A stretch of 57,672 nucleotides of DNA from an uncultured Balneola sp. (GTDB taxonomy: Bacteria > Bacteroidota > Rhodothermia > Balneolales > Balneolaceae), in NCBI GenBank assembly GCA_913058495.1, contig CAJXQC010000020.1:1-57672 (forward strand). The letters run 5' to 3'. Shown one piece after another: positions 29,834-43,289 of the stretch. Position 1 is the first letter of the stretch, and every line of letters begins with the position of its first letter. The translations under genes were made by a program, and so were the position numbers. The notes beneath the pieces were generated by a model. That model had not been told where the DNA came from. It ran no database searches and was given only the letters and a program-made list of their open reading frames with translations.

Positions 29834-32800
29834 CTAATATTTTATTCTAAACAGTAAGCTGTATAAAACGGGAATAAAGAATAAGGTGATTACCGTTGCA
29901 AAGAGCAATCCGAAAATAATACTCACCGCCATTGGTTCCCACATAATTCCACCACCAAACCATAAAGGTAAAAGCCCAAACGTTGTTGTTGCTGTTGTGA
30001 GCAGAATAGGTCTGAAGCGGTGTAGCGCCGCATTCACAACCGCTTCCGAATGTGATTGATTCACATTTAGGTTTTCAATATTAATTCGGTCAATCAAAAC
30101 AATTGCGTTATTGATGACAATCCCTGCTAGTGAAATAATCCCTAAGAACGCAAAGAAACTGAAATAGGATTGAGCCACAATTAGCCCGAATACTACTCCA
30201 ATAATACCTAATGGTACTGTGCTTAAAACAAGTGCTGTTTTTCGAATAGAATTAAATTGTAGGATGAGTAACAGCAGTATGATAAAGCCTGAAAGTGGCA
30301 GTTTATCAGAAACAGCTTTCATCCCTTCGGAACTGCTTTGAGCTTCACCCCCTAATTCATAGGAATAACTGCTTTCCCAGTTTTTAGAATTTTCTTCTAG
30401 CCATGGATTTAATACCTCTGTGATTTCTGTAGCTGTATAATCTGCTTCGAGAAAAGCTGTAACACTAATGGTTCGGCTTAAGTCCTTTCGTTTGATTTTT
30501 GCAAACTGCCAATCTGATCTGATTTTTGCGACCTGAGCTAATGGAACTTGTTTTCCACTACTTTGGGAAAAAATAGTTAATGTCTGAAGAGAGTTAATGG
30601 TTTGATCCTGATTAACTTCGTCTCTCATAACAATTGGAATGCTATTATCCTCTTCTCTGAATTCTCCCACATTAAATCCTGAAAGCACCGTTCGCAAAGA
30701 AATTGCTATATCCTGATTGGTTAGACCTACTTCTCTTGCCCTTACAGGATCAATATCTACTACCAGTTTGATAATTTTTGGTCCCCAGTCATCACTTACG
30801 TTTTTAGCTCCTTTAATATTTATGAGCTTTTCTTTTACCTGTTCAGCAAGACCTGTTAAATACTCTGCTTCCGGACCGGAAATACGAACTTCAACAGGAA
30901 CCCCACCTCCACCTCCGCCAAGTTTTTTTACTTTCACTTCCGCATTTGGAAGATTATTAAATGCAAACTCATCAAGCTGAGCAATTACGTACTCGTTATC
31001 TGCTCCGGAGCTGGTATTAAGAAGCATGTGCGCATAGCCGGAGTTTGCTTCTCCGGGCTGGTAACCCAGATCGTAAGATGACGGACCTTTTCCTATAAAT
31101 GACGACCAACCTGTAATCCCTTTTTCTCGTTCTTCATCTACCAATAATTCTTGCTGAATATATTCTTCAATGATAGCAACTGTTTCGGTGGTGCGTTCGA
31201 TCTTAGTTCCTAACGGAAGATTCAGATCAAGAGTCACTAAATTACGTTCGCTGTCCGGAAAAAAGATGAAGGGAATATTTCCGAATGAGAAAATAGCAGT
31301 GAAGAATAAGCCCACAATGATGACTAAGAATAACAATCGCCTTTTTAGAACTACCATTAACCAACCTTTGTAATGAGTTCTGAATCTGTCAAAAATGGAT
31401 GTTTTTTCAGAACCGGCTTTTACTTTTTTGATCTTGATAACAGCAACTGCTAACAAAGGAATAAGTGTTAGTGACAACAACCATGATGATAAAAGAGCTA
31501 TTGTTATTACAGAAAACAACGGCCCTACAATTTCACCCATAATAGATTCTGCCAAAAAGAAAGCTAAGAAAGCCGCCGAGGTTGTTAGTGATGAAATCAA
31601 GAGTGGAACCATTAGTTCAGAACTTGATTGAACAGCAGAATCAACTGCAGAATTACCTTCTTCCATTTTTACCATGATGGACTCAGCCATAACTATGGCG
31701 TTATCAACCAACATGCCTAAAGCCATAATAAGCGCCGCCAATGAAACCTGATTGAGCCCGATGGTAAAAAAGTCCATCAAGAATAGAGTAAGTATAATCG
31801 CCATTGGAATCAGGCTGGCTACTACAAATCCTGTTCTGAATCCCAAAAACAGAAACATTACAACAAGTACTATCCCGACACTCTGAAGCAAGTTAGAAAC
31901 AAAATCTTTTACCGATTTATCTACCTCATAATCCTGAGATGAAATACGATTTAAAGTTAATCCAACGGGTAGTTCTTTGTTCAGCTCTATTACTCTGGCG
32001 TTTACTTTCTCACCCAGCTCAATAATGTTTGCTCCTTCTTTAAGAGCAATAGAAATCGAAATTCCTCTTTCACCATCAATTTTTACAAGCTGATCTACAG
32101 GCGAAACATAGTCTTTTCTAATAGTTGTGATATTTCCCAATGCTACAGTTTCTCCTCCACCGACAGGCACAAGCATATTTCTGAGATCATTAAGTGTCTC
32201 AAAATTTCCTGTGGGTTCCAGAATCACACGCTTGTCATTCAAGCTTACGTCTCCACCGGGGAATATAATATTGGTTGTAGCTATTATATTTTGAAGCTGA
32301 CCGGAACTCAGGTTATATCTTGCCAATTCCGTATTATCAAACTCCACATATACTCGCTCTTCCTGTAACCCTGCTACTTCAATTTGGGAAGCGCCTTCCA
32401 ATCGAATAAGTTCATCTTTTATGAAATCGGAATAATCTTTGAGTTCTTTATAACTAAAGCCTTCGTTTTGTAAACCAAGAACAATTCCGAACACAACGCC
32501 GAGATTATCATCATTAACGGTTGGTCCGGTAATTCCATCAGGTAAAGTGGGAGTAAGCACGTCAATTTTTCTACGTAAGCGATCCCAGATCGGGCGGAGA
32601 TCAGCTTGTGGTATATCATCAGTTAAAGAAACGGTTACAACTGAAAGTCCTGTTCTTGACTCACTGGTTATGGTCTTTACTTCCGGAATTTCCTGAGCCA
32701 CTTTCTCAATTTTATCGGAAATCAAAGATTCTACTCGTTCAGGACCTGCACCTGGAAAAACAGTAACAATGGATGCCGCCCTGATTGTATATGGAGGCAT

Positions 32801-32908
32801 ACTGTCCCTTGAAAGCTTATTGTATGCCAGTGCACCCATTATAACTATAACGAGCAGTACCATATAAGCTACCCGATTATATTTGATTGAAGACGATGTT
32901 AAATTCAT
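29834..32908 (-). CDS. RND efflux transporter permease (AcrB/HAE family)
   Basis: A 1024-residue proton-driven inner membrane pump with the two-fold RND layout: one helix, large periplasmic porter domain, six helices, repeated. The first membrane half has GMLVDNAIVMAESIMVKMEE, where the Asp of the proton relay is kept and its usual neighbouring Asp is Asn; the second half has LAGIVINNAIVLIDRIN. A glycine-rich loop (KKLGGGGGGVPVEVRISG) sits in the second porter domain. With the adaptor and channel genes directly upstream it forms a complete tripartite exporter, substrates unknown. Confidence 0.93.
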   Translation of the reverse strand: MNLTSSSIKYNRVAYMVLLVIVIMGALAYNKLSRDSMPPYTIRAASIVTVFPGAGPERVESLISDKIEKVAQEIPEVKTITSESRTGLSVVTVSLTDDIPQADLRPIWDRLRRKIDVLTPTLPDGITGPTVNDDNLGVVFGIVLGLQNEGFSYKELKDYSDFIKDELIRLEGASQIEVAGLQEERVYVEFDNTELARYNLSSGQLQNIIATTNIIFPGGDVSLNDKRVILEPTGNFETLNDLRNMLVPVGGGETVALGNITTIRKDYVSPVDQLVKIDGERGISISIALKEGANIIELGEKVNARVIELNKELPVGLTLNRISSQDYEVDKSVKDFVSNLLQSVGIVLVVMFLFLGFRTGFVVASLIPMAIILTLFLMDFFTIGLNQVSLAALIMALGMLVDNAIVMAESIMVKMEEGNSAVDSAVQSSSELMVPLLISSLTTSAAFLAFFLAESIMGEIVGPLFSVITIALLSSWLLSLTLIPLLAVAVIKIKKVKAGSEKTSIFDRFRTHYKGWLMVVLKRRLLFLVIIVGLFFTAIFSFGNIPFIFFPDSERNLVTLDLNLPLGTKIERTTETVAIIEEYIQQELLVDEEREKGITGWSSFIGKGPSSYDLGYQPGEANSGYAHMLLNTSSGADNEYVIAQLDEFAFNNLPNAEVKVKKLGGGGGGVPVEVRISGPEAEYLTGLAEQVKEKLINIKGAKNVSDDWGPKIIKLVVDIDPVRAREVGLTNQDIAISLRTVLSGFNVGEFREEDNSIPIVMRDEVNQDQTINSLQTLTIFSQSSGKQVPLAQVAKIRSDWQFAKIKRKDLSRTISVTAFLEADYTATEITEVLNPWLEENSKNWESSYSYELGGEAQSSSEGMKAVSDKLPLSGFIILLLLILQFNSIRKTALVLSTVPLGIIGVVFGLIVAQSYFSFFAFLGIISLAGIVINNAIVLIDRINIENLNVNQSHSEAVVNAALHRFRPILLTTATTTFGLLPLWFGGGIMWEPMAVSIIFGLLFATVITLFFIPVLYSLLFRIKY

Positions 32909-32941
32909 TGGATTCTTTTTTTGGTTTGTAAAGTGATCGTC

Positions 32942-34036
32942 TTAGTTCAGCAGGGTAACTTTTCTTCCGTCAAACAGAGATGGGATTCCTGCAGTTGCAA
33001 CAAGATCGCCATCCTGTAATCCGTACCTGATCTCAAAGCCTTCAGCTGTTATTTCACCAATTCCAACTGCTGTTTTTACAGCTGTATAATTATTTTCTGT
33101 TTTTGTAAGCAGATAAACAAAATGACCCGTATTATCTTCCCCAACAGCCTCTATTGGAGCAATGAGTGTTTCTGCACTACTCTCGTTTTGGAAATTAAAA
33201 GTTACATCAGCAGTCATTCCCGGTCTTATTTGGCTGGATGCTTTGAGTACTGCAATCTTTACGGGATAAGTACTCGAATTATTAGCTGAAAACGGAACTT
33301 CAATCACGTTGCCTTCAAAAGTTTGACCTTGAAGTGTGGAGAAGGTAACAGAAACTCCCTGTCCTTCGACAACCCTACTGATAAACACTTCAGGGATAGC
33401 GACCTGAAGTTCAATATCATTCCCTGAATTTAGTGTAACGATAGGTGAACCGGCTTGAACAAGTTCGTTTTCTTCAATAGTCACATTTGAGATGATACCC
33501 GAAACCGGAGCCTTAACCGTAAAATAACTAAGTTGGCTCTGCTGAAGGTCGTAAGCTTTTTTTGATGACTCGAACTGAGATAACGCACTTGCAAACTGTG
33601 CTTTTGCTTGTTCATACTCAGCCAATGATGCACTTCCAACTTGGTAAAGCTCCCGCACTCTTGTTAAGTTTGATTCAGCATTATTGCGCTGTACACCAGC
33701 ATTATCAAACGAAGCTTTTGCTTGCTGAAGAGACAACTGTGCATCACTGTCATCAAGTTTGGCAATAACCATTCCTGACTGGATCCTGTCACCTGCTTTT
33801 ACATTAATTTGTTCAACCAATCCACTGGTTCTAAAGCTTAATTTAGCCTGGGCACTGGACTGCGCCATTCCAGAAAAAGTATAGGACTGCGAACCTCCGA
33901 GATAAGTAACCGATCCGTACTTTACCGGTTTAATTACTTCCTTTGTCTCAGTTTCTACATCTTTTCCGCAAGAAGAAAAGAGTACGACGGCAATTGTTAA
34001 AACAGCCATTGATAAAGTTTTGTGCATCTTGATCAT
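32942..34036 (-). CDS. RND efflux periplasmic adaptor (membrane fusion protein), lipoprotein
   Basis: A 364-residue adaptor linking the inner-membrane pump to the outer-membrane channel. A signal with lipobox FSSC (Cys23) anchors it. The lipoyl halves are SFRTSGLVEQINVKAGDRIQ and TVKAPVSGIISNVTIEENEL, separated by a short coiled-coil hairpin (about 95-165, Gln/Ala-rich); beta-barrel and membrane-proximal domains follow. I show the ATG giving MIKMHK; the ATG three codons later is as good. The gap to the channel gene is six bases. Confidence 0.92.
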   Translation of the reverse strand: MIKMHKTLSMAVLTIAVVLFSSCGKDVETETKEVIKPVKYGSVTYLGGSQSYTFSGMAQSSAQAKLSFRTSGLVEQINVKAGDRIQSGMVIAKLDDSDAQLSLQQAKASFDNAGVQRNNAESNLTRVRELYQVGSASLAEYEQAKAQFASALSQFESSKKAYDLQQSQLSYFTVKAPVSGIISNVTIEENELVQAGSPIVTLNSGNDIELQVAIPEVFISRVVEGQGVSVTFSTLQGQTFEGNVIEVPFSANNSSTYPVKIAVLKASSQIRPGMTADVTFNFQNESSAETLIAPIEAVGEDNTGHFVYLLTKTENNYTAVKTAVGIGEITAEGFEIRYGLQDGDLVATAGIPSLFDGRKVTLLN

Positions 34037-34042
34037 GAGATT

Positions 34043-36409
34043 TTATTGTTGAATAAAGTTTAAATAACGGTTAATAAAAGCCTGGTTTTCTTCATCAGTA
34101 GATAGAAGTGTATAGCGTCCTATGATGTTTTCGAGCCTGATAAAAGACAGTAAATAGTTGTAGACCGAGTTAGAATAATTGAGACTCGCTGAAAAAGCAG
34201 CATTTTGTGCATCAATTAATTGATTAATAGGAACAAGTCCTTTTTTGTAAGAATCCTGAACTATCTCAAAGTTTTTCTGAGCGTTATCAGACGAAACCTG
34301 ACTGTAATTTACATTTGTAGAAGCCGAAACAACGCTGATAAGTTGTGCCCGAATACCAAGCTCTAAGCTTTGATCTATATCCCTTTTTTGATAGTCAATT
34401 TGCTTCTTCTGAATCATGGTTCTCTCAACATCCAGCTTACGCTGACCGCCTGAGAAAATAGGGAGAGAAACATTAACCCCTATGTTCCATGTAATATCAT
34501 TTTGAGTAGGCGCACCAGGATTAGGAGTTACATCTGATCCCGCACCACCTGTCCATAACTTATCATCAACACCTGCTTGCAGAGCAACAGTAGGTGTAAA
34601 AAAGCGTCTTTTATTTAATAGTAATTGTCTGTCTAAAAGTGAGGAATTAGCATCAATTTGTTGAATGGATGGGTTTTGAGATTGTGCTTCAGCCACAAGA
34701 AAATTTGTAAATCTTTCCAACTGAGCCGGGGTTTGGATAAACTGACCAAGACTATTTTCAGTGTAGTTTTGGAAGGTTTCATCATCTAATGAAACTTCCT
34801 CAAGTTCGAACTCATTATCTAATTCAATATTTAGAATACGTCCCAATTGTAATTTGCTTTGAACAAACGCTGATTGAGCCTCAATAACTGACTGTGTAGC
34901 ATTAGCAACTTCGCTTTCCCATCGGTATAGATCGCTTCTATTACTTGCACCAATTGATACACGCACTTTTGCAAACTCAAGATTGGTTTTAGAACTCTCA
35001 AGGTTTTCCTGCTGTATTTGCAAACCTGTTTTTGCTTTAAGTACATTAAAGTAAGCTTCAAATGTATCTAGGATTACGTTTAAAGCTTGCTGATCGAGCG
35101 ATGCTTGTTGAGCTTTTGCTAAATACTTTTGAATTTGAATATTGGCTAATGCATCCTCTGAATAGATCAACTGTGAAAGAGAGCCCGATCCTGTTAGAGT
35201 TTGTTCGGCTTGTCCACCAAAGGAAGCTTTGGCTCTATCCTGATCTATTTGAAGCCCTGTTGCAGAAGCTTCAATTTGTGGTAAGAACTGAGATTTAGCA
35301 AAGGCAATATCATTTTCAGATAATTCGAGATCTTCTTCGCTGATTTGAATATTAAGGTTATTTCTGAACGCCAACGAAACTACCTCATTCAAAGTGTAAA
35401 TTGATCCTTTAGCTATGGATTCCTGTCCTACAATTTCTGCAGTAAAAAGAGTTTCAAACGTGGGTGAAAAATTAATGGCTTGTGCCGTAGCAATATTCAG
35501 AAATAATTTTTCTTTGAAATTTAGTGCAACCGCCAGATCAGCATACTCTTTACCTGCAATGGCGTCTTCCACCATCAAAGAAGCTTTACGCCTTAATTGA
35601 TCTATACCGTTATCATCTGATAAACTTGCTAAAATACCCAAATCCACATGCTCTCTAAGGCCTGAAAAAGATGGTATGTCAGCTTGTATTAAATTATCTG
35701 CCAGTTCTTTTATTTCTTTGGGTGACTTTTCGTAAGTTATTGCAATATAAACTGCATCTGTTTCAGAATTAAATCCGGAAACAGCGTCTTTCATCGAAGC
35801 TCCAACAGGTACAATTTCAAAGTTCGCGTCTAAAGATTGGGTAAGTTCATTCAGGTAACTGCTTTGAGAATAAATATCGGCGGTACGCGCATCCATCATT
35901 ATGGCGATCTGTTTAAAACCCACAAGATCCTGAAAAGTAGAAAGTTCCTTCTCCAATGAATTGGATGTAAGGATATAACTTAAATTATTAACTCCGGATG
36001 TTCCGCTTTCTGTATAAGGTATATTTTGAAGCTTTGGATCGAAAACACCAATCCCGAGAGTAGATACAGGATAAAAATTTGAACTAACCGCACCTTTTAA
36101 TGATGCCCCTCCTATAACCAATACCATATCTACTCTTTCTGAAAGTGATTGGTAGTGTGTTTTGGCAAGATTTGAATCGTATTCAGACGAAAGTATATCT
36201 GCATTATTAAAGGTAATTGTCGCTGAGTTCCCTACCGTTTGTATGATATCCTCTTTCAATTGAGTTACAAATGAAAAAGAGGCATTCTCAATTGAAAAAT
36301 CAGTAATAACTCCAATTTTTACCGATTTTTTTGTTGGCTGAGCAGAGAGCAGTCCAAATGTTGATACTGCTATAATCAAGAGTAGTATAAATCTTTTACC
36401 GGTTTTCAT
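34043..36409 (-). CDS. TolC-type outer membrane efflux protein fused to an N-terminal ABC substrate-binding domain
   Basis: A 788-residue exported protein, far longer than TolC proteins (about 430-500). Signal peptide 1-23 (LLSAQ). Residues about 29-327 look like the ABC_sub_bind family (PF04392): KIGVITDFS, VLVIGGASLKGAVS, QIAIMMDARTADIY, DAVYIAITYEKSP, and the family-typical end ALNFKEKLFLNIATAQAINF. From about 338 a normal OEP domain follows (YTLNEVVSLAFRNNLNIQIS; later GVNVSLPIFSGGQRKLDVER), with long coiled coils to the end. There is no stop or frame change between the parts, so it is a true fusion. First gene of the efflux operon; the binding domain would face the periplasm. Confidence 0.88.
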   Translation of the reverse strand: MKTGKRFILLLIIAVSTFGLLSAQPTKKSVKIGVITDFSIENASFSFVTQLKEDIIQTVGNSATITFNNADILSSEYDSNLAKTHYQSLSERVDMVLVIGGASLKGAVSSNFYPVSTLGIGVFDPKLQNIPYTESGTSGVNNLSYILTSNSLEKELSTFQDLVGFKQIAIMMDARTADIYSQSSYLNELTQSLDANFEIVPVGASMKDAVSGFNSETDAVYIAITYEKSPKEIKELADNLIQADIPSFSGLREHVDLGILASLSDDNGIDQLRRKASLMVEDAIAGKEYADLAVALNFKEKLFLNIATAQAINFSPTFETLFTAEIVGQESIAKGSIYTLNEVVSLAFRNNLNIQISEEDLELSENDIAFAKSQFLPQIEASATGLQIDQDRAKASFGGQAEQTLTGSGSLSQLIYSEDALANIQIQKYLAKAQQASLDQQALNVILDTFEAYFNVLKAKTGLQIQQENLESSKTNLEFAKVRVSIGASNRSDLYRWESEVANATQSVIEAQSAFVQSKLQLGRILNIELDNEFELEEVSLDDETFQNYTENSLGQFIQTPAQLERFTNFLVAEAQSQNPSIQQIDANSSLLDRQLLLNKRRFFTPTVALQAGVDDKLWTGGAGSDVTPNPGAPTQNDITWNIGVNVSLPIFSGGQRKLDVERTMIQKKQIDYQKRDIDQSLELGIRAQLISVVSASTNVNYSQVSSDNAQKNFEIVQDSYKKGLVPINQLIDAQNAAFSASLNYSNSVYNYLLSFIRLENIIGRYTLLSTDEENQAFINRYLNFIQQ

Positions 36410-37171: not shown

Positions 37172-37759
37172 ATGAACAAGGCAATTAAACTTTTATCTTT
37201 AGTACTTTTTGGAGTAATGTCTGCTGCAGCAGTTAATTACATAGCTACTGAGTGGACAATCGACAAATCTCACAGTAACATTGACTTTGAAGTACGTCAC
37301 TTCTTTACACCTGTTAACGGAACTTTTCATGATTACAATGCAACCGTAAATTTTGATCCTGCTAACCTAGAAGAAAGCATGATCGATGTAGAAATCATGG
37401 TAAACAGTATTGATACAAGAAATGAAAGAAGAAACGGTCACTTGAAAACAGCCGATTTCTTTAATGCAGAAAAATATCCGAAAATCACTTTCAAAAGCTC
37501 CAAGATTGAATCTAAAGGAGACAATAAATTTGTAGCTCATGGTGATTTAACTATTAAAGATGTTACTAAAAAAATCGAAATGCCTTTCACTTTATTGGGC
37601 GTTATGGATCACCCAAGAGGCGGTAAAGTAGCCGGTATTACCTCTGAATTTGTGATCGACCGTAATGTTTTTGGTGTTGGAACCGGTGACTGGGTTTCAG
37701 ATGCAGTTGTTGGAAAGGAAGTAACAGCTACACTAAACCTTGAGCTGAACAGCAAGTAA
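37172..37759 (+). CDS. YceI family periplasmic lipid-binding protein
   Basis: A 195-residue exported protein with a signal peptide (about 1-20, VMSAAAV). The mature part is the YceI lipocalin-like barrel that binds polyisoprenoid or other amphiphiles: WTIDKSHSNIDFEVRHFFTP, VNSIDTRNERRNGHLKTADF, FNAEKYPKITFKSSKI, DLTIKDVTKKIEMPF, and the late SEFVIDRNVFGVG. Length is standard. Monocistronic, with a strong terminator 20 bases after the stop. Confidence 0.94.
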   Translation: MNKAIKLLSLVLFGVMSAAAVNYIATEWTIDKSHSNIDFEVRHFFTPVNGTFHDYNATVNFDPANLEESMIDVEIMVNSIDTRNERRNGHLKTADFFNAEKYPKITFKSSKIESKGDNKFVAHGDLTIKDVTKKIEMPFTLLGVMDHPRGGKVAGITSEFVIDRNVFGVGTGDWVSDAVVGKEVTATLNLELNSK

Positions 37760-37780
37760 ATAATTTTTTCAAAAGAATTG

Positions 37781-37815
37781 AAAGCATCGTTTCATTGAGA
37801 CGATGCTTTTTTTTA
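37781..37815 (+). terminator. Rho-independent terminator after yceI-like gene
   Basis: A 10-bp perfect stem (AAAGCATCGT / ACGATGCTTT) with a 9-base loop, followed by a run of T. Confidence 0.92.
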
Positions 37816-37843
37816 TTTTAGGGGATCACTCAAAAAAATTTAT

Positions 37844-38392
37844 ATGAATAAGCGATTACTTATAATTACCGGACTTTTACTTTTAGCTGCAATCTCAAGG
37901 ATGATTCCTCACCCGTACAATTTTGCGCCTATAGGAGCAATGTCATTATTCGGAGCAGCTTATTTTTCAAATAAAAGATTAGCTTTTATACTTCCTCTAC
38001 TGGCATTTTTCGTAAGTGATCTTTTGGTGAATAATATACTCTATGCTGATTATTACTCAAGCTTTGTATTGATCTCTCCGGGCTTCTACTGGACCTATGG
38101 TGCTATGATCGCAATTGTAGTTGCAGGTATTTTCATACTCAAAAAATTAAATTTCAAAAGAGTCGTTGGAGGTGCCTTATCTGCTTCTGTTCTGTTCTTT
38201 ATAATCTCAAATTTTGGAGTATGGATCAGTACTCCTACTTATGATCTGTCTCTCTCAGGCTTTATTGCTTGTTATGTTGCAGCTATTCCCTTTTTCCATA
38301 TGACGGTATTAGGAGATCTATTTTACTGCGGAGCTCTTTTTGGTCTCTTTGAATTTGCTAAATATAAAGTTCCTGAATTAAAAGCAGCATAG
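37844..38392 (+). CDS. DUF6580 family membrane protein
   Basis: A 182-residue integral membrane protein with about five or six helices. Family marks: RMIPHPYNFAPIGAMSLFGA near the N-terminus, LLAFFVSDLLVNN, and ISNFGVWISTPTYDLSLSG, AIPFFHMTVLGDLFYCG late. The fold resembles ECF transporter S components (substrate-capture subunits), but no ECF energising genes are here, so transport of a small molecule is only a guess. It stands alone between a terminator and the DUF4956 gene 67 bases downstream. Confidence 0.8.
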   Translation: MNKRLLIITGLLLLAAISRMIPHPYNFAPIGAMSLFGAAYFSNKRLAFILPLLAFFVSDLLVNNILYADYYSSFVLISPGFYWTYGAMIAIVVAGIFILKKLNFKRVVGGALSASVLFFIISNFGVWISTPTYDLSLSGFIACYVAAIPFFHMTVLGDLFYCGALFGLFEFAKYKVPELKAA

Positions 38393-38459
38393 TTTCTTAA
38401 AGTCAAAAAGAGTGTTATACTCTTTGAGTTAACTATAAGATCAGCATAACCTCTTTTAG

Positions 38460-39143
38460 ATGTTTGAACTGTTTCCGGATCAACCGGTTTATGACTATCC
38501 TACATTACTGAATGTAACATATTCTTTGATTTGGGCATTTGTGCTTTCATCAATCATTGCTATTACCCACAAAGTAACTTTTACCGGACATCAGTATCCT
38601 AAAAACTTCTTTCAGGCTTTGGCTTTAGGTTCAATCGTCTCTGCCATGGTAATGATGGCAATTGGTGATAGTTTAGCCCGTGGTCTTGGAGCATTTGGTG
38701 CTCTGGCTATTATTCGTTTCAGAACCAGAATTCAGGATGCCCGAAACATCTTATTTATATTTGCAGCTTTAAGTGTTGGTCTGGCTATTGGGATCTTTGG
38801 CTATACGATCGCATTTGCAGGTACCATTATCTACTGTACCATGGCATTGATCCTTCATTTTACCCCTTTCAGCACAAAAACCGGTATGCGCGGGCGTTTA
38901 ATTTTCAGGCTCAGTGATTCTGACCCTACAAAATTAGCAGAAGTTACCGGTGTAATCGGAAAGTACTGTGCAGATTTTCATGATGTTGAAGTTACTTCCA
39001 GAAATTCCGGACGGTTTGATTATGAATATGAAATCGAAATGAATCTGGACGCTGACAATACAGCTTTTTTGACCGACCTCCAGAAAATTGAATCTCTTAC
39101 AAGAGTTCGGGTTACATTCAAAAACATTCAGGAAGCTAATTAG
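38460..39143 (+). CDS. DUF4956 domain membrane protein
   Basis: A 227-residue inner membrane protein. About four helices (19-38, 49-68, 75-86, 95-130) precede a soluble tail (about 142-227). The central GAFGALAIIRFRTRIQDARN then ALSVGLAIGIFGY resembles in layout the MgtC/SapB membrane core, and the tail (RGRLIFRLSDSDPTKLAEVT onward) looks ACT-like, as in MgtC; this likeness is my inference. It begins a tight run: the HlyD-like gene follows after 8 bases and the TolC-like gene overlaps that one. The function of DUF4956 is unknown; elsewhere it occurs beside VTC-type polyphosphate polymerase-like and CotH proteins. Confidence 0.82.
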   Translation: MFELFPDQPVYDYPTLLNVTYSLIWAFVLSSIIAITHKVTFTGHQYPKNFFQALALGSIVSAMVMMAIGDSLARGLGAFGALAIIRFRTRIQDARNILFIFAALSVGLAIGIFGYTIAFAGTIIYCTMALILHFTPFSTKTGMRGRLIFRLSDSDPTKLAEVTGVIGKYCADFHDVEVTSRNSGRFDYEYEIEMNLDADNTAFLTDLQKIESLTRVRVTFKNIQEAN

Positions 39144-39151
39144 AGGTAATT

Positions 39152-40132
39152 ATGCGTAAAGTAAATTCCTTTTATGTTTTCATTTTCCTAGCATTTGCAA
39201 CGCTGATGACCGTCAATTCCTTTTACTTTAAAGGAAGCAGCTCTTTTCTTGGGGTAACCTATTCCAAAGCATATAAGATCAATGCGGAAAAATCCGGAAT
39301 TATAAAAAGCCTCTTTGTAGTGCCCGGTCAGGAAGTCCAAAAAGGTGACAAACTCATTGAAGTAGAAAGCCCGCAACTAAATCTGGATATCCAGAAGCTC
39401 AGTAAAGAAATTGAGCTTTTCAAATCAGAAAAAAGAGAGAAAAAAGCATTACTTGATTCAAAAATAAAGCTTTTAGAGTCTGAAAAATCTATCCTCAAAG
39501 GTGAAATTGAAAATGATATAAGGCTTATTCAAAACGAAATAGACCTTAACAATAAGCTTACTCGAACGATCTCAAAAGATGTATCTACCGATTCTTTAAC
39601 AGCTCTTAAGCTTCAGATCAAGTCTATCAGGGAAAAAGGAAACCTGGAACTTCAGGGATTAGATATCCGAATTCTGGATCTGAAACAGGAAGACGAATTC
39701 GATCAATCTCAAATTCAATCTAAAATAGAACTGGCAAATGAAGAGTTGGAATGGAAACTTCGTGAAGAAAGACGACTGAATAAGTTCGCTACTTTCTCCG
39801 GAGTGATTGAAAATGTATACGTAAAAGAAGGAGAAGAAGTAGAAGCTTTTACCTCCCTTGTTTCAATAAATCCTAAACATCCTACTTCAGTTGTTGGTTA
39901 CTTAGTTGGTAAAAAAGAAAGAGACAGAGAACTGGGTGAAATTGTTACCGTGAAATCTCTGGAACAACCTAACCTGCAAATTCAGGGAAAGATCATTGGG
40001 TTTGGCGCCGTTGTGGAACTTCCACAAATCATGGAAAAAGATAATTCCCTTACTACATTCGGGCTCGAGATCTTCATTGAAATTCCTGAGGATAATCCAC
40101 TCGTTGTGGGTGAGCAGATCATCGTTAAGTAA
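39152..40132 (+). CDS. HlyD-like periplasmic adaptor protein
   Basis: A 326-residue protein with one N-terminal helix (8-24), no lipobox, so anchored in the inner membrane. Split lipoyl halves, INAEKSGIIKSLFVVPGQEV (about 44-63) and FATFSGVIENVYVKEGEEVE (about 210-229), flank a long charged coiled-coil hairpin (about 70-205). A short beta-barrel follows. This is the plan of adaptors in tripartite exporters; the hairpin should reach an outer-membrane channel such as the one encoded next. The usual pump partner (ABC, MFS or RND) is missing; the only membrane partner is the DUF4956 protein. Confidence 0.8.
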   Translation: MRKVNSFYVFIFLAFATLMTVNSFYFKGSSSFLGVTYSKAYKINAEKSGIIKSLFVVPGQEVQKGDKLIEVESPQLNLDIQKLSKEIELFKSEKREKKALLDSKIKLLESEKSILKGEIENDIRLIQNEIDLNNKLTRTISKDVSTDSLTALKLQIKSIREKGNLELQGLDIRILDLKQEDEFDQSQIQSKIELANEELEWKLREERRLNKFATFSGVIENVYVKEGEEVEAFTSLVSINPKHPTSVVGYLVGKKERDRELGEIVTVKSLEQPNLQIQGKIIGFGAVVELPQIMEKDNSLTTFGLEIFIEIPEDNPLVVGEQIIVK

Positions 40133-41364
40133 TGGCAAAACGTATTACATTTTTCATTTTAGCTTTCCTTTTTTCAGGTTGGAATGCGGTCTTTGCCCAA
40201 ACTTCGGTCTCCGATTTTTTATTAACAGCTTTTGAAGATATTAATACTCAAGGGTACGACGCCTCCATTGATTTTATTTCTCCGCGAAATTACCGTCTGC
40301 CTGTTGTAGAAGATCTCGAATTCCGTTTCAGTAACGATGAATTTACTTTAGAAGATCAGCAGTATGCCTTAAGGTTCAGACCCGGTAATCCCTGGAAAAT
40401 ACGTCGCAATAATGCTCTTTTTAATGCTACCAAAAAGGAATTAACAATACGAAAGAAGATCCAGTATCAGGAAAACCTGGAGGCGCGATACGAACTTGCT
40501 GCTGAATATCTCCTTGATATTCAATTAATGGAAATTGAGGAACAGAAGTACTCATTAATTCAAAAGAGGGTCGACATTCTTAGCACAAATATGGAAAGTT
40601 CTCTTTTTACTGCTAAAGATTTCGTGGAAGCGAAACTAGATCAAGTGGATGCTATTACAAATCAGGAAGATCTTAATGTTTCTATTTCACAAACTAAAAG
40701 AGAGATTACTTCTTTACTTCAACAACCGGATATCGAATGGAGCCATGAGCAGTTGATTTCTGTAACTGCAATTGAAAACATTTCTGATGAAGTAGCTTTA
40801 AATTCTTTTTCTTCTTTAGAGTTGGATCTCATTTCTCAGCAAATTGAAGTAGCAAAAAGCGAAGTAAAATTAGAAAAAGCCGATTTTAATGTAGGCTATT
40901 TCCAAACTGAATATTATCCCGAAAAAAACCGGGACTCTGATTTCGGTATCGCGTTTGGTATAAGTATTCCGATCTTCAAATCTAACAAAAATCAGATAGC
41001 TGAGCGAAAGCTGGACGAGATTGAACTTCAAGGTGAGCTTGCCGCTGAACAATTTCAGGATTCAGTAAAAAGAATTACTGAATACGAATACCTGAAAAGC
41101 CTGATAACTCAGCATGAAATTCTCACTGATAGAATAAACGCATTGGATCTGATCACCCTTAAAAAAAATCTTAGTCAAATCGAGAATAATAATCCGCTTA
41201 CTATTCTAGAACTCGAAGAAGGAATACTAAAATTGAAGGAATTAGAGCTTAAATCGTACAGACGTGTGGTGGAACAATATATTGAGTTTTTGAATACGTT
41301 TAATGTGCTTACCCAACTTCCGCTTACAAATTATCTCTCCGAAAGCCTGGAAACATTCGAATGA
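40132..41364 (+). CDS. TolC-like outer membrane efflux protein (divergent)
   Basis: A 410-residue exported protein with a signal peptide (1-22, NAVFAQ). The body is long helices with the TolC-type strand segment SDFGIAFGISIPIFKSNKNQ (about 278-297) followed by a helix that parallels the 'SLPIFSGG' segment of classical members. The first strand region (SNDEFTLEDQQYALRFRPGN) is atypical, and the protein is shorter than standard TolC. The start overlaps the adaptor stop (TAATGG). Together with the adaptor and DUF4956 it forms an apparent three-part envelope assembly. Confidence 0.75.
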   Translation: MAKRITFFILAFLFSGWNAVFAQTSVSDFLLTAFEDINTQGYDASIDFISPRNYRLPVVEDLEFRFSNDEFTLEDQQYALRFRPGNPWKIRRNNALFNATKKELTIRKKIQYQENLEARYELAAEYLLDIQLMEIEEQKYSLIQKRVDILSTNMESSLFTAKDFVEAKLDQVDAITNQEDLNVSISQTKREITSLLQQPDIEWSHEQLISVTAIENISDEVALNSFSSLELDLISQQIEVAKSEVKLEKADFNVGYFQTEYYPEKNRDSDFGIAFGISIPIFKSNKNQIAERKLDEIELQGELAAEQFQDSVKRITEYEYLKSLITQHEILTDRINALDLITLKKNLSQIENNNPLTILELEEGILKLKELELKSYRRVVEQYIEFLNTFNVLTQLPLTNYLSESLETFE

Positions 41365-42080
41365 AAAATATACTTATTACAGGTGCTACTTCCGGAATTG
41401 GCCGGGAACTTGCACTACAACTAGCAGAAGCAGGTAACAAAGTTGGTTTGATGGGCAGAAGAACTGAAAAGCTTGAATCAATCCAAAAAGAGATTGGTGA
41501 GAATGCTTTCATTAGGACATTAGATGTCACCGATCTTGAAAAAGCTGAAAATGTTTATCGAGATCTTATTGATGAAATGGGCGGAATGGATATGATGATC
41601 CTGAATGCCGGAGTGGGAGTAGATAAAATTATGTCCCCATGGAAAGCAGACAAGCTTACTATTGAAGTTAACGTTCTCGCATTCTCACATGGGCTTCACT
41701 TTGCGTTTGATTTCTTCCGAAGACAAGGACATGGACACATAGTTGGAATGTCTTCCATTGCCTCACACTTGGCTTCGTATAAAGCTGCTGTCTATACAGC
41801 TTCAAAACATTTTGTGTCTAATTATATGACCGGGTTTCGTCAAAAAGCAAAACGCATACCCGCTGATATTACAGTAACTGATATAAAACCCGGGTTTGTA
41901 AAATCTGAAATGACCGAAAATGTGCCACGCATGTTTTGGGTATCCGAAACAGATAAAGCCGTTAAGCAAATGATCAAAGGACTCGATAAAAAGAGGAATA
42001 TTGTTTACATCACAAAAAGATGGGTGCTTGTTGCATGGCTGGCGCGACTAACCCCTCAATTTGTTTGGGATCGCATCTAA
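41361..42080 (+). CDS. short-chain dehydrogenase/reductase (SDR)
   Basis: A 239-residue NAD(P)H-dependent oxidoreductase of the classical SDR type. Cofactor loop TGATSGIG (7-14), Arg33-Arg34 suggesting NADP(H), NAG at 82-84, catalytic Ser131/132 and the YTASK motif (Tyr145, Lys149). The C-terminus has a hydrophobic stretch. Its start overlaps the end of the TolC-like gene by four bases (ATGA), so it is co-translated with the DUF4956 set, possibly by chance. Substrate unknown. Confidence 0.9.
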   Translation: MKNILITGATSGIGRELALQLAEAGNKVGLMGRRTEKLESIQKEIGENAFIRTLDVTDLEKAENVYRDLIDEMGGMDMMILNAGVGVDKIMSPWKADKLTIEVNVLAFSHGLHFAFDFFRRQGHGHIVGMSSIASHLASYKAAVYTASKHFVSNYMTGFRQKAKRIPADITVTDIKPGFVKSEMTENVPRMFWVSETDKAVKQMIKGLDKKRNIVYITKRWVLVAWLARLTPQFVWDRI

Positions 42081-42140
42081 AGTTTTACTTATCAAAATGG
42101 AATTTTTGTTTAGATTCTGAGAAACTAACAATATTTCACT

Positions 42141-43289
42141 ATGCGTATTCTAATTTTTGCACTAGCTACACTATTAATCAGCTGTTCTTCAAAAGAATCT
42201 AAAGACCTGATCCCTGAAAAAAGTGGCCCTCCTTCCATTTCTTTAGGATATCTGGAAGCTCCTGCAGGATTTGCGATTTCTGTATTTGCTGAAGGTGTTA
42301 CTAATGCCCGACAAATGGCGATGAGCGACTCCGGCATACTCTATGTAGGATCGCGTCGCGAAGGTAAAGTGTACGCTGTTGTAGATAACAACAATGATTT
42401 TCAGGCTGACTCTGTCTATACGATCATTGAGGGATTACGCTTACCAAACGGAGTTGCATATAAAGACGGCTCTCTTTTTGTAGCAGAAGTCAGTAAGATC
42501 TGGCGCTTTGATAATATCGATCAAAATTATGCTGATTCTCCTGAACCGGTTTTAGTAACCGATGAACTGCCGACTGAAGGACATCATGGATGGAAATACA
42601 TCGCTTTTGGTCCGGATGAAAAGCTTTATGTCCCGATTGGTGCGCCATGTAATATTTGTAATCATGAAGAAGACAATCCGCTATTTGCTACTCTTACCAA
42701 AATGAATGCAGACGGTTCTGAGCATGAAATTGTCGCCAAAGGAATCCGAAATACAGTAGGATTTACATGGCATCCTGAAACAGGAAACATTTGGTTTACA
42801 GATAACGGCAGAGACTGGCTAGGAGATGACATCCCTCCTTGCGAGCTAAATGAAATTACAGGGGAAGATCAGCATTTTGGTTATCCCTATTTACACGGAA
42901 ATGATGTATGGGACCCGAAGTTTGGAGAAGATGGAAAACCTATGGCTGATCGTTTTAAAAAACCTGTTCAGGAACTAGGTGCGCATGTTGCTCCACTTGG
43001 TGTGATCTTTTATACCGGAAATATGTTTCCAACCAGTTATAAAAACAGAGCTCTTATTGCAGAGCATGGCAGCTGGAACCGCAGTTCAAAAGTTGGATAT
43101 CAAATTTCTCAGGTTATTTTTGATGATGAAGGAAACCCAACAGAGTATAAACCATTTATTACAGGTTGGTTGGCTGGAGAGGAAGATATAAAAGGTCGCC
43201 CCGTTTCCATTCTTCAGTTAGACGATGGGTCCTTACTAATCTCAGATGATGATTCCGGTAAAATATACAGAGTCACATATTCCATCTAG
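42141..43289 (+). CDS. PQQ-dependent sugar dehydrogenase-like (sorbosone dehydrogenase family) lipoprotein
   Basis: A 382-residue exported beta-propeller protein. The lipobox LISC (Cys15) follows a short signal. Blades carry ILYVGSRREGKVYAV, LPNGVAYKDGSLFVAEV, HHGWKYIAFGPDEKLYVPIG, CNICNHEED, NTVGFTWHPETGNIWFTDNG, and RALIAEHGSWNRS near the end, patterns of soluble aldose/sorbosone dehydrogenases that use PQQ. The quinone site His and Arg residues are plausible but I cannot confirm cofactor use; no pqq genes are in the window. It would oxidise a sugar in the periplasm. Monocistronic. Confidence 0.85.
   Translation: MRILIFALATLLISCSSKESKDLIPEKSGPPSISLGYLEAPAGFAISVFAEGVTNARQMAMSDSGILYVGSRREGKVYAVVDNNNDFQADSVYTIIEGLRLPNGVAYKDGSLFVAEVSKIWRFDNIDQNYADSPEPVLVTDELPTEGHHGWKYIAFGPDEKLYVPIGAPCNICNHEEDNPLFATLTKMNADGSEHEIVAKGIRNTVGFTWHPETGNIWFTDNGRDWLGDDIPPCELNEITGEDQHFGYPYLHGNDVWDPKFGEDGKPMADRFKKPVQELGAHVAPLGVIFYTGNMFPTSYKNRALIAEHGSWNRSSKVGYQISQVIFDDEGNPTEYKPFITGWLAGEEDIKGRPVSILQLDDGSLLISDDDSGKIYRVTYSI

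Follow-up and report, generated by a model that had tools for sequence, protein, structure and literature searches.

The window analysed here is positions 1 to 57,672 (forward strand) of contig CAJXQC010000020.1 from an uncultured Balneola sp. (GenBank assembly GCA_913058495.1), and the system in question is a run of three genes encoding a DUF4956 membrane protein, a HlyD/EmrA-type periplasmic adaptor and a TolC-fold outer-membrane channel. We propose, with about even confidence, that this triad is a tripartite conduit having neither polymerase nor pump, which descends from a trans-envelope phosphate-polymer exporter driven by a VTC-domain protein. The computation supports the identity of the three components and the fact that they are conserved, a channel dedicated to the system, the absence of VTC and an origin from VTC-linked systems; how the conduit assembles, its pore, cargo, driving force and gating are what we infer. 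Among the literature matches listed there is no description of a DUF4956-HlyD-TolC system, in keeping with the original prediction, made from the DNA letters of the window, that the system is undescribed.

A three-gene envelope system without a pump

The three genes follow each other exactly as first noticed, with eight bases between the DUF4956 and adaptor genes and one base shared by the adaptor stop and the channel start:

38460..39143, forward strand: DUF4956 gene, 227 amino acids (PF16316, AlphaFold2 model, hhalign to MgtC)
38715..38723, forward strand: codons 86-88 of DUF4956, the invariant R-F-R motif at the end of transmembrane helix 3
38745..38747, forward strand: codon 96 (Asn) of DUF4956, the position that is acidic in the non-canonical VTC-linked rows
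39152..40132, forward strand: HlyD/EmrA-type periplasmic adaptor gene, 326 amino acids (Pfam and family profile)
40132..41364, forward strand: TolC-fold outer-membrane channel gene, 410 amino acids (AlphaFold2 and fold matches)

The identities first given to the products (inner-membrane DUF4956, split-lipoyl adaptor, TolC-like protein) are backed by Pfam, structure models and fold matches. The first protein belongs to DUF4956 (PF16316, E 8.2e-12, 45.6 bits against a curated cut-off of 30.6). The adaptor matches Biotin_lipoyl_2 (2.2e-10), HlyD_D23 (2.9e-9) and HlyD_3 (2.7e-7), all over their cut-offs, and has the split lipoyl halves, long hairpin and barrel domain of HlyD/membrane fusion proteins together with an N-terminal transmembrane anchor read from the sequence; the solved chain closest to its family profile is EmrA (2.4e-22), MacA being matched as well. 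For the channel, a Pfam scan of the window protein returned zero matches, PF02321 (OEP) included, and this family is matched by 5/20 members of the channel alignment A6 at E up to 0.01 (best 6.7e-5). The AlphaFold2 model of the channel (mean predicted local distance difference test, pLDDT, 88.1) has its helices and strands in the sequence expected of a TolC protomer, each protomer contributing four beta strands and long helices of the alpha-barrel. Among the top 25 rows of the structure comparison, TolC, OprM, VceC and CusC align with it over 345-380 residues at Z 19-23; the best Foldseek E is 8.2e-14.

An excerpt of PMC8277102 names ABC, RND and MFS proteins as the inner-membrane transporters of tripartite systems. 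By Pfam, none of these was found among the seven proteins scanned at 37172-43286, so that the lack of a known pump with the triad in the window stands, and no energy-coupling domain was found in the three triad proteins. A promoter scan gave 10 sites against 18.7 in shuffled sequences, fewer than in the shuffles, and was not used.

The triad is conserved and its channel is apparently dedicated

Two sets of loci were compared. The first comprises 81 loci (80 neighbourhoods and the window) of 95 DUF4956 places in 394 genomes of the window's phylum, which we take to be Bacteroidota in GTDB terms; the second holds the best 80 of 567 confirmed DUF4956 loci in a contig profile scan. Three loci are common to both (L040=L112, L079=L156 and L085=L146). 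The tree of the first set has 80 loci, L111 with its short open reading frame being left out, and L142, which has no selected DUF4956 gene, is absent from the four-gene, diderm/monoderm and residue-96 counts given below.

PF16316 was found in 87/394 genomes. The order DUF4956-HlyD-TolC on one strand with no VTC, hereafter window-type, is seen in 17 of the 81 loci including the window, all from the family f1, in which 25 sampled genomes have DUF4956 (the 17 window-type and 8 with VTC). Since all 17 also share a DUF6580 gene at -1, YceI at -2 and an SDR homologue at +3, part of the conservation within f1 is plain synteny. The triad recurs in other surroundings further off, in Cyclobacterium and Algoriphagus (Cyclobacteriaceae), in Saprospiraceae and in Lewinella, and a purely local arrangement was rejected on this ground. 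The adaptor and TolC neighbours of DUF4956 are thus conserved among relatives, as the original prediction expected, nor was a canonical pump always encoded beside the adaptor and channel in the loci examined. Strong matches to the channel subfamily (E up to 1e-8) occur in 18/394 genomes and each adjoins DUF4956 (the 17 window-type loci and G012); three weak partial matches lie away from DUF4956, with at most four scored candidates shown per genome. The channel therefore looks, apparently, dedicated to the DUF4956 system.

Two genes of the more distant triads are each split into two open reading frames, by sequencing error or real damage: the TolC-like gene of Cyclobacterium (L113:9662-10883) and the HlyD gene of a Saprospiraceae locus (L131:7405-8192).

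A VTC-domain protein is the usual partner of DUF4956

A protein of ~250 amino acids encoded near DUF4956 forms a single cluster in 53 loci, and the two members first scanned have the VTC domain. VTC is present in 56/394 genomes, and DUF4956 in 56/56 of these; none of the 307 DUF4956-negative genomes has it (Fisher p 7e-46, uncorrected for kinship). The converse fails, 31 DUF4956 genomes being without VTC, namely the 17 window-type and 14 others. In the first set, 55/81 loci have VTC on the same strand as DUF4956 and within 2.5 kb of it, 38 of them with HlyD as well and 17 lacking it, and in the second set 58/80 do; four (L048, L059, L074 and L110) of six HlyD loci labelled VTC-less do have VTC alongside. 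The bacterial VTC profile matches the catalytic domain of yeast Vtc4 at 2e-19, and the Arg, Lys and Glu columns that do not vary, or hardly vary, fall in stretches that align with this domain and presumably correspond to its active-site residues. An excerpt of PMC9911596 mentions mutations at R264, R266 and E426.

No VTC (PF09359) was found in the genome of the window, whose assembly is 99.39% complete, and this search within the assembly led us to reject a VTC gene elsewhere in the same genome; the 17 window-type genomes all gave the same negative result. Of 15 named triad genomes, counting L112, ten show no VTC and five have it elsewhere, the five being Saprospiraceae throughout, most of the searched triad genomes being metagenome bins and possibly incomplete; the genomes of L116 and L137 have VTC. 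The original prediction was thus right that the triad is conserved and pump-less, and it overlooked the VTC polymerase as the normal neighbour of DUF4956: the triad without a pump seems to derive from a system that had a soluble VTC-domain polymerase and lost it.

An association of the same kind is found in an excerpt of PMC7112168, according to which the accessory genes of Pel loci in Gram-positive bacteria include those for CotH, a polyphosphate polymerase and DUF4956. In the part of PMC2879425 that describes a clostridial locus, two VTC-domain genes are each followed by a membrane protein of 222-226 amino acids labelled tubulin/FtsZ, and the second pair by CotH; by size and place, these membrane proteins may be mislabelled DUF4956.

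Ancestry of the triad

The DUF4956 tree has 56 rows, and its root is not inferred by the method. It holds a TolC-linked set of 29 rows (support 100/99), including L116, whose contig ends just past DUF4956, and nested in it a set of 22 VTC-less triads (96/93); L081, with the order HlyD-DUF4956-OEP and no VTC, is placed elsewhere. The HlyD tree unites the TolC-linked loci (25 rows, 95) with L076 outside, and the resolution of the TolC tree is poor. As the outside groups in the DUF4956 tree mostly carry VTC, the simplest reading of these trees is that a four-gene ancestor lost VTC, with at least one further independent loss in L081.

Such four-gene loci are found today, and on the DUF4956 tree the VTC-less triad of the window falls among them. 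DUF4956, HlyD, TolC and VTC stand together in Delongbacteria, Fibrobacter, Desulfobacterium and spirochaete loci; the automatic search recovered four with a window-type TolC (L115, L118, L121 and L126), and two were added by hand, L076 for its strong OEP match and L127, whose third gene lies under the TolC profile and Pfam OEP thresholds. In the Planctomycete loci L133, L135 and L179 a second four-gene arrangement is seen, VTC-DUF4956-HlyD followed by an OEP channel of 543-687 amino acids, which suggests repeated, independent recruitment of outer-membrane channels. HlyD lies near DUF4956 in many phyla, and its presence follows the outer membrane: it is near DUF4956 in 46/60 diderm and 0/19 monoderm loci (79 loci of named organisms, classes assigned by us from the organism names). 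At some loci (e.g., L154 and L188) a missing HlyD is uncertain because the contigs end close to DUF4956.

A Pho4 phosphate transporter lies within the gene run of L127, and a phosphate-porin-like gene adjoins DUF4956 in L082. Some HlyD proteins of DUF4956 loci are 650-750 amino acids long (L121:1479-3734, L127:1237-3237 and L137:10643-12598), with no Pfam match over their C-terminal few hundred residues.

DUF4956 is a remote homologue of MgtC

The AlphaFold2 model of DUF4956 (pLDDT 87.9) has helices at residues 16-40, 48-68, 72-87, 94-111 and 115-134, taken as five predicted transmembrane segments, and a C-terminal ferredoxin/ACT-like tail of the order beta-alpha-beta-beta-alpha-beta, which in a structure search resembles ACT, NikR and ribosomal S6 folds. 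Pairwise hhalign against MgtC (an alignment of 10 rows, from 10/30 loci) gave a probability of 97.2 and an E of 3.5e-11 over 192 columns, so that both the resemblance to MgtC and the ACT-like tail first read from the letters are borne out. The window protein falls below the cut-off of the MgtC/SapB family (PF02308, E 0.1, 13.4 bits against 31.4), and the four DUF4956 genes that PF02308 matches are all under the cut-off too (best 4.0e-5); by profile comparison, DUF4956 is a remote MgtC homologue and not a member of that family. The membrane core has hardly been compared with solved folds because the Foldseek and VIA matches lie mainly in the tail (residues 142-227 for VIA). A separate MgtC gene is also present in the genome of the window.

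The R-F-R motif is invariant in 68/68 rows of the structure alignment A5 (67/79 DUF4956 rows and the window), and the canonical DUF4956 rows displayed carry R-Y-R in its place. This motif is probably at the cytosolic mouth of the protein, a side of the membrane that we deduce, and the tail is suggested to be cytosolic by Lys and Arg residues near the ends of transmembrane helices 1, 3 and 5; DUF4956 also probably oligomerises.

Close to this motif, at the start of transmembrane helix 4, residue 96 is Asn in the window. Among DUF4956 rows from VTC-bearing loci it is acidic in 99/99 of the non-canonical ones (97/97 without duplicates) and in 16/17 of the canonical ones. In VTC-less loci it is non-acidic, mostly Asn, in 33/42 non-canonical rows (32/41 without duplicates); among the nine exceptions in all, L116 and L082 have VTC elsewhere in the genome and L154 lies at a contig end. 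We treat residue 96 simply as a lead to a candidate VTC docking site. Two loci, L067 (G017) and L084 (G206), encode a DUF4956 of ~185 amino acids with a non-acidic residue 96 and have no VTC, HlyD or TolC nearby.

Neighbouring genes

Two further genes flank the triad in the window:

37844-38392, forward strand: DUF6580 membrane protein, directly upstream of DUF4956
41361..42080, forward strand: SDR oxidoreductase gene (PF00106, 8.8e-40), with a 4-base overlap with the channel gene

Neighbour tallies cover 86/141 proteins of VTC loci and 27/34 of loci labelled VTC-less, the latter including L116, L137 and L139, the last of which has VTC nearby. PF00106 is found in 1/27 neighbours of the loci labelled VTC-less, a sample that includes the +3 gene of the window relative L112, and the SDR oxidoreductase is accessory at most; PF20221 (DUF6580) likewise occurs in 1/27. 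A lamin-tail gene lies upstream of the Cyclobacterium triad.

An RND operon is encoded at 29834-36409. One of its products, a protein of 788 amino acids (34043-36409, reverse strand), has a channel part matched by OEP in two stretches, the better at 340-527; its N-terminal part has no Pfam match and by eye is like a periplasmic substrate-binding domain.

Discussion

Taking all loci together, we consider as tentative, and as somewhat less than an even prospect, that they encode a diderm machine for secreting phosphate polymer, running from VTC through an MgtC-like DUF4956 to HlyD and TolC, of which one widespread Bacteroidota/Balneolota branch, that of the window among them, would do without the polymerase and serve polyphosphate made by PPK1 or another phosphate anion. 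In the ancestral four-part machine a cytosolic VTC-domain polymerase would have docked on DUF4956, the MgtC-like inner-membrane passage, and pushed the growing phosphate polymer outward; the HlyD adaptor, spanning the periplasm, and the dedicated TolC-type protein, as the outer-membrane exit, would have taken the polymer from VTC-DUF4956 out of the cell, by analogy with the yeast VTC that delivers it into the vacuole. For the yeast complex, an excerpt of PMC9911596 describes polyphosphate synthesis coupled to translocation through a basic membrane channel. The lineage of the window would then have lost the polymerase and kept the conduit, and its present role, as we think most likely, would be to release a phosphate polyanion of other origin, possibly a PPK1 product, with the inside-negative membrane potential as the putative drive and the cytosolic ACT-like tail as the putative gate. 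The triad may, as first suggested, be an exporter, a gated conduit or a sensor; its ancestry speaks for a conduit that passes phosphate polymer or some other anion, and PPK1-made polyphosphate, suggested as the leading cargo, is a guess; the genome of the window has one PPK1 match.

Several points weigh against this interpretation. The VTC-less rows are not a single group in the HlyD or TolC tree (2 changes each). L113, L114 and L132 keep Asp at residue 96 although the genome search shows no VTC, and the link between this residue and VTC loses significance once rows are paired by phylogeny, which leaves 4 independent pairs with a median p of 0.5; the outcome is the same in a rerun with a corrected score for L139 and no duplicates. 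Excluded from these tests were L112, L137, six near copies and six loci judged ambiguous, and from the rerun also L146 and L156. VTC might act in trans in the five of the 15 named triad genomes that hold it elsewhere. PPK1 is weak evidence because it is common (7/14 control genomes), and the cargo may have changed once VTC was gone. An exporter deprived of its polymerase needs another driving force, and none is visible in the loci. To our knowledge MgtC itself is no established transporter, and we have seen no assay of polyphosphate synthesis by a bacterial VTC or of a DUF4956 pore.

The alternative that survives best, which we find possible but rather unlikely, is that DUF4956 senses a cytosolic ligand or the state of the envelope, and that the HlyD-TolC tube, which it would open or hold in place, passes ions or small solutes. 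The homology of DUF4956 with MgtC, a tail like the ACT, NikR and ribosomal S6 folds and the three proteins being devoid of any Pfam energy-coupling domain would all suit such a gated conduit or sensor, whereas the seemingly dedicated TolC-fold exit and the VTC ancestry point to outward passage. We are more doubtful of a second alternative, in which the triad exports the substrate or phosphoryl donor of extracytoplasmic CotH-type kinases and their lamin-tail-domain partners. CotH makes up 22/86 of the neighbour proteins of VTC loci and 2/27 of those labelled VTC-less, lamin-tail domains 9/86 and 2/27, a CotH gene stands directly upstream of the Algoriphagus triad, the genome of the window has four CotH matches, and CotH lies beside the polyphosphate polymerase and DUF4956 genes in the excerpted Pel loci (PMC7112168); yet no CotH is among the seven proteins scanned around the triad of the window, the extracellular donor of such kinases is unknown, and the link is one of neighbourhood only. 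It seems improbable that the adaptor and channel work with an ordinary pump of the inner membrane whose gene lies elsewhere, with DUF4956 as an accessory. Through adaptors, many transporters do share a small number of channels (excerpt of PMC8277102), the window has its RND operon, and in the other 16 window-type loci the flanking genes were compared by clustering and not scanned for pump families; but that divergent operon carries its own adaptor and channel, its RND cluster is near the triad in 1/17 window-type loci, the strong channel matches all adjoin DUF4956 (with the same limit of four candidates per genome, and three weak partial ones elsewhere) and HlyD is near DUF4956 across many phyla, and we accordingly think it unlikely that the triad channel is shared with the neighbouring RND pump.

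If export by the polymerase-less conduit were shown, tripartite systems would gain a new class, a conserved conduit that has its own channel and, in the inner membrane, an MgtC-like partner. DUF4956 and the bacterial VTC would gain a testable joint function, and bacteria a route by which they could place polyphosphate extracellularly. The DUF4956 loci of diderm and monoderm bacteria, some having VTC and others lacking it, offer a natural experiment for such work.

Comparison with known systems

With the MgtC/SapB family, DUF4956 shares a homologous membrane core and a small C-terminal domain; we know of no pairing of MgtC with HlyD or TolC, and in this DUF4956 differs. Like tripartite efflux pumps and type I secretion systems, the triad combines a HlyD/EmrA-type adaptor, a TolC-fold channel and a protein of the inner membrane in a single operon, but this last partner is DUF4956 and not an ABC, RND or MFS transporter. 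The Gram-positive Pel loci share with the VTC-linked DUF4956 loci a DUF4956 gene adjoining one for a polyphosphate polymerase; the excerpt of PMC7112168 mentions no adaptor or channel and gives no function for DUF4956, and the window, unlike them, has no VTC. A further parallel is the eukaryotic VTC complex (Vtc1/3/4): in relatives of the window a Vtc4-like polymerase domain is likewise found beside a multi-transmembrane partner with invariant arginines, and the model shares with it translocation coupled to synthesis. In contrast to that complex, the bacterial VTC is a separate soluble protein of ~250 amino acids and its membrane partner an MgtC-like DUF4956, and the system of the window has dispensed with VTC and is equipped with a HlyD-TolC duct.

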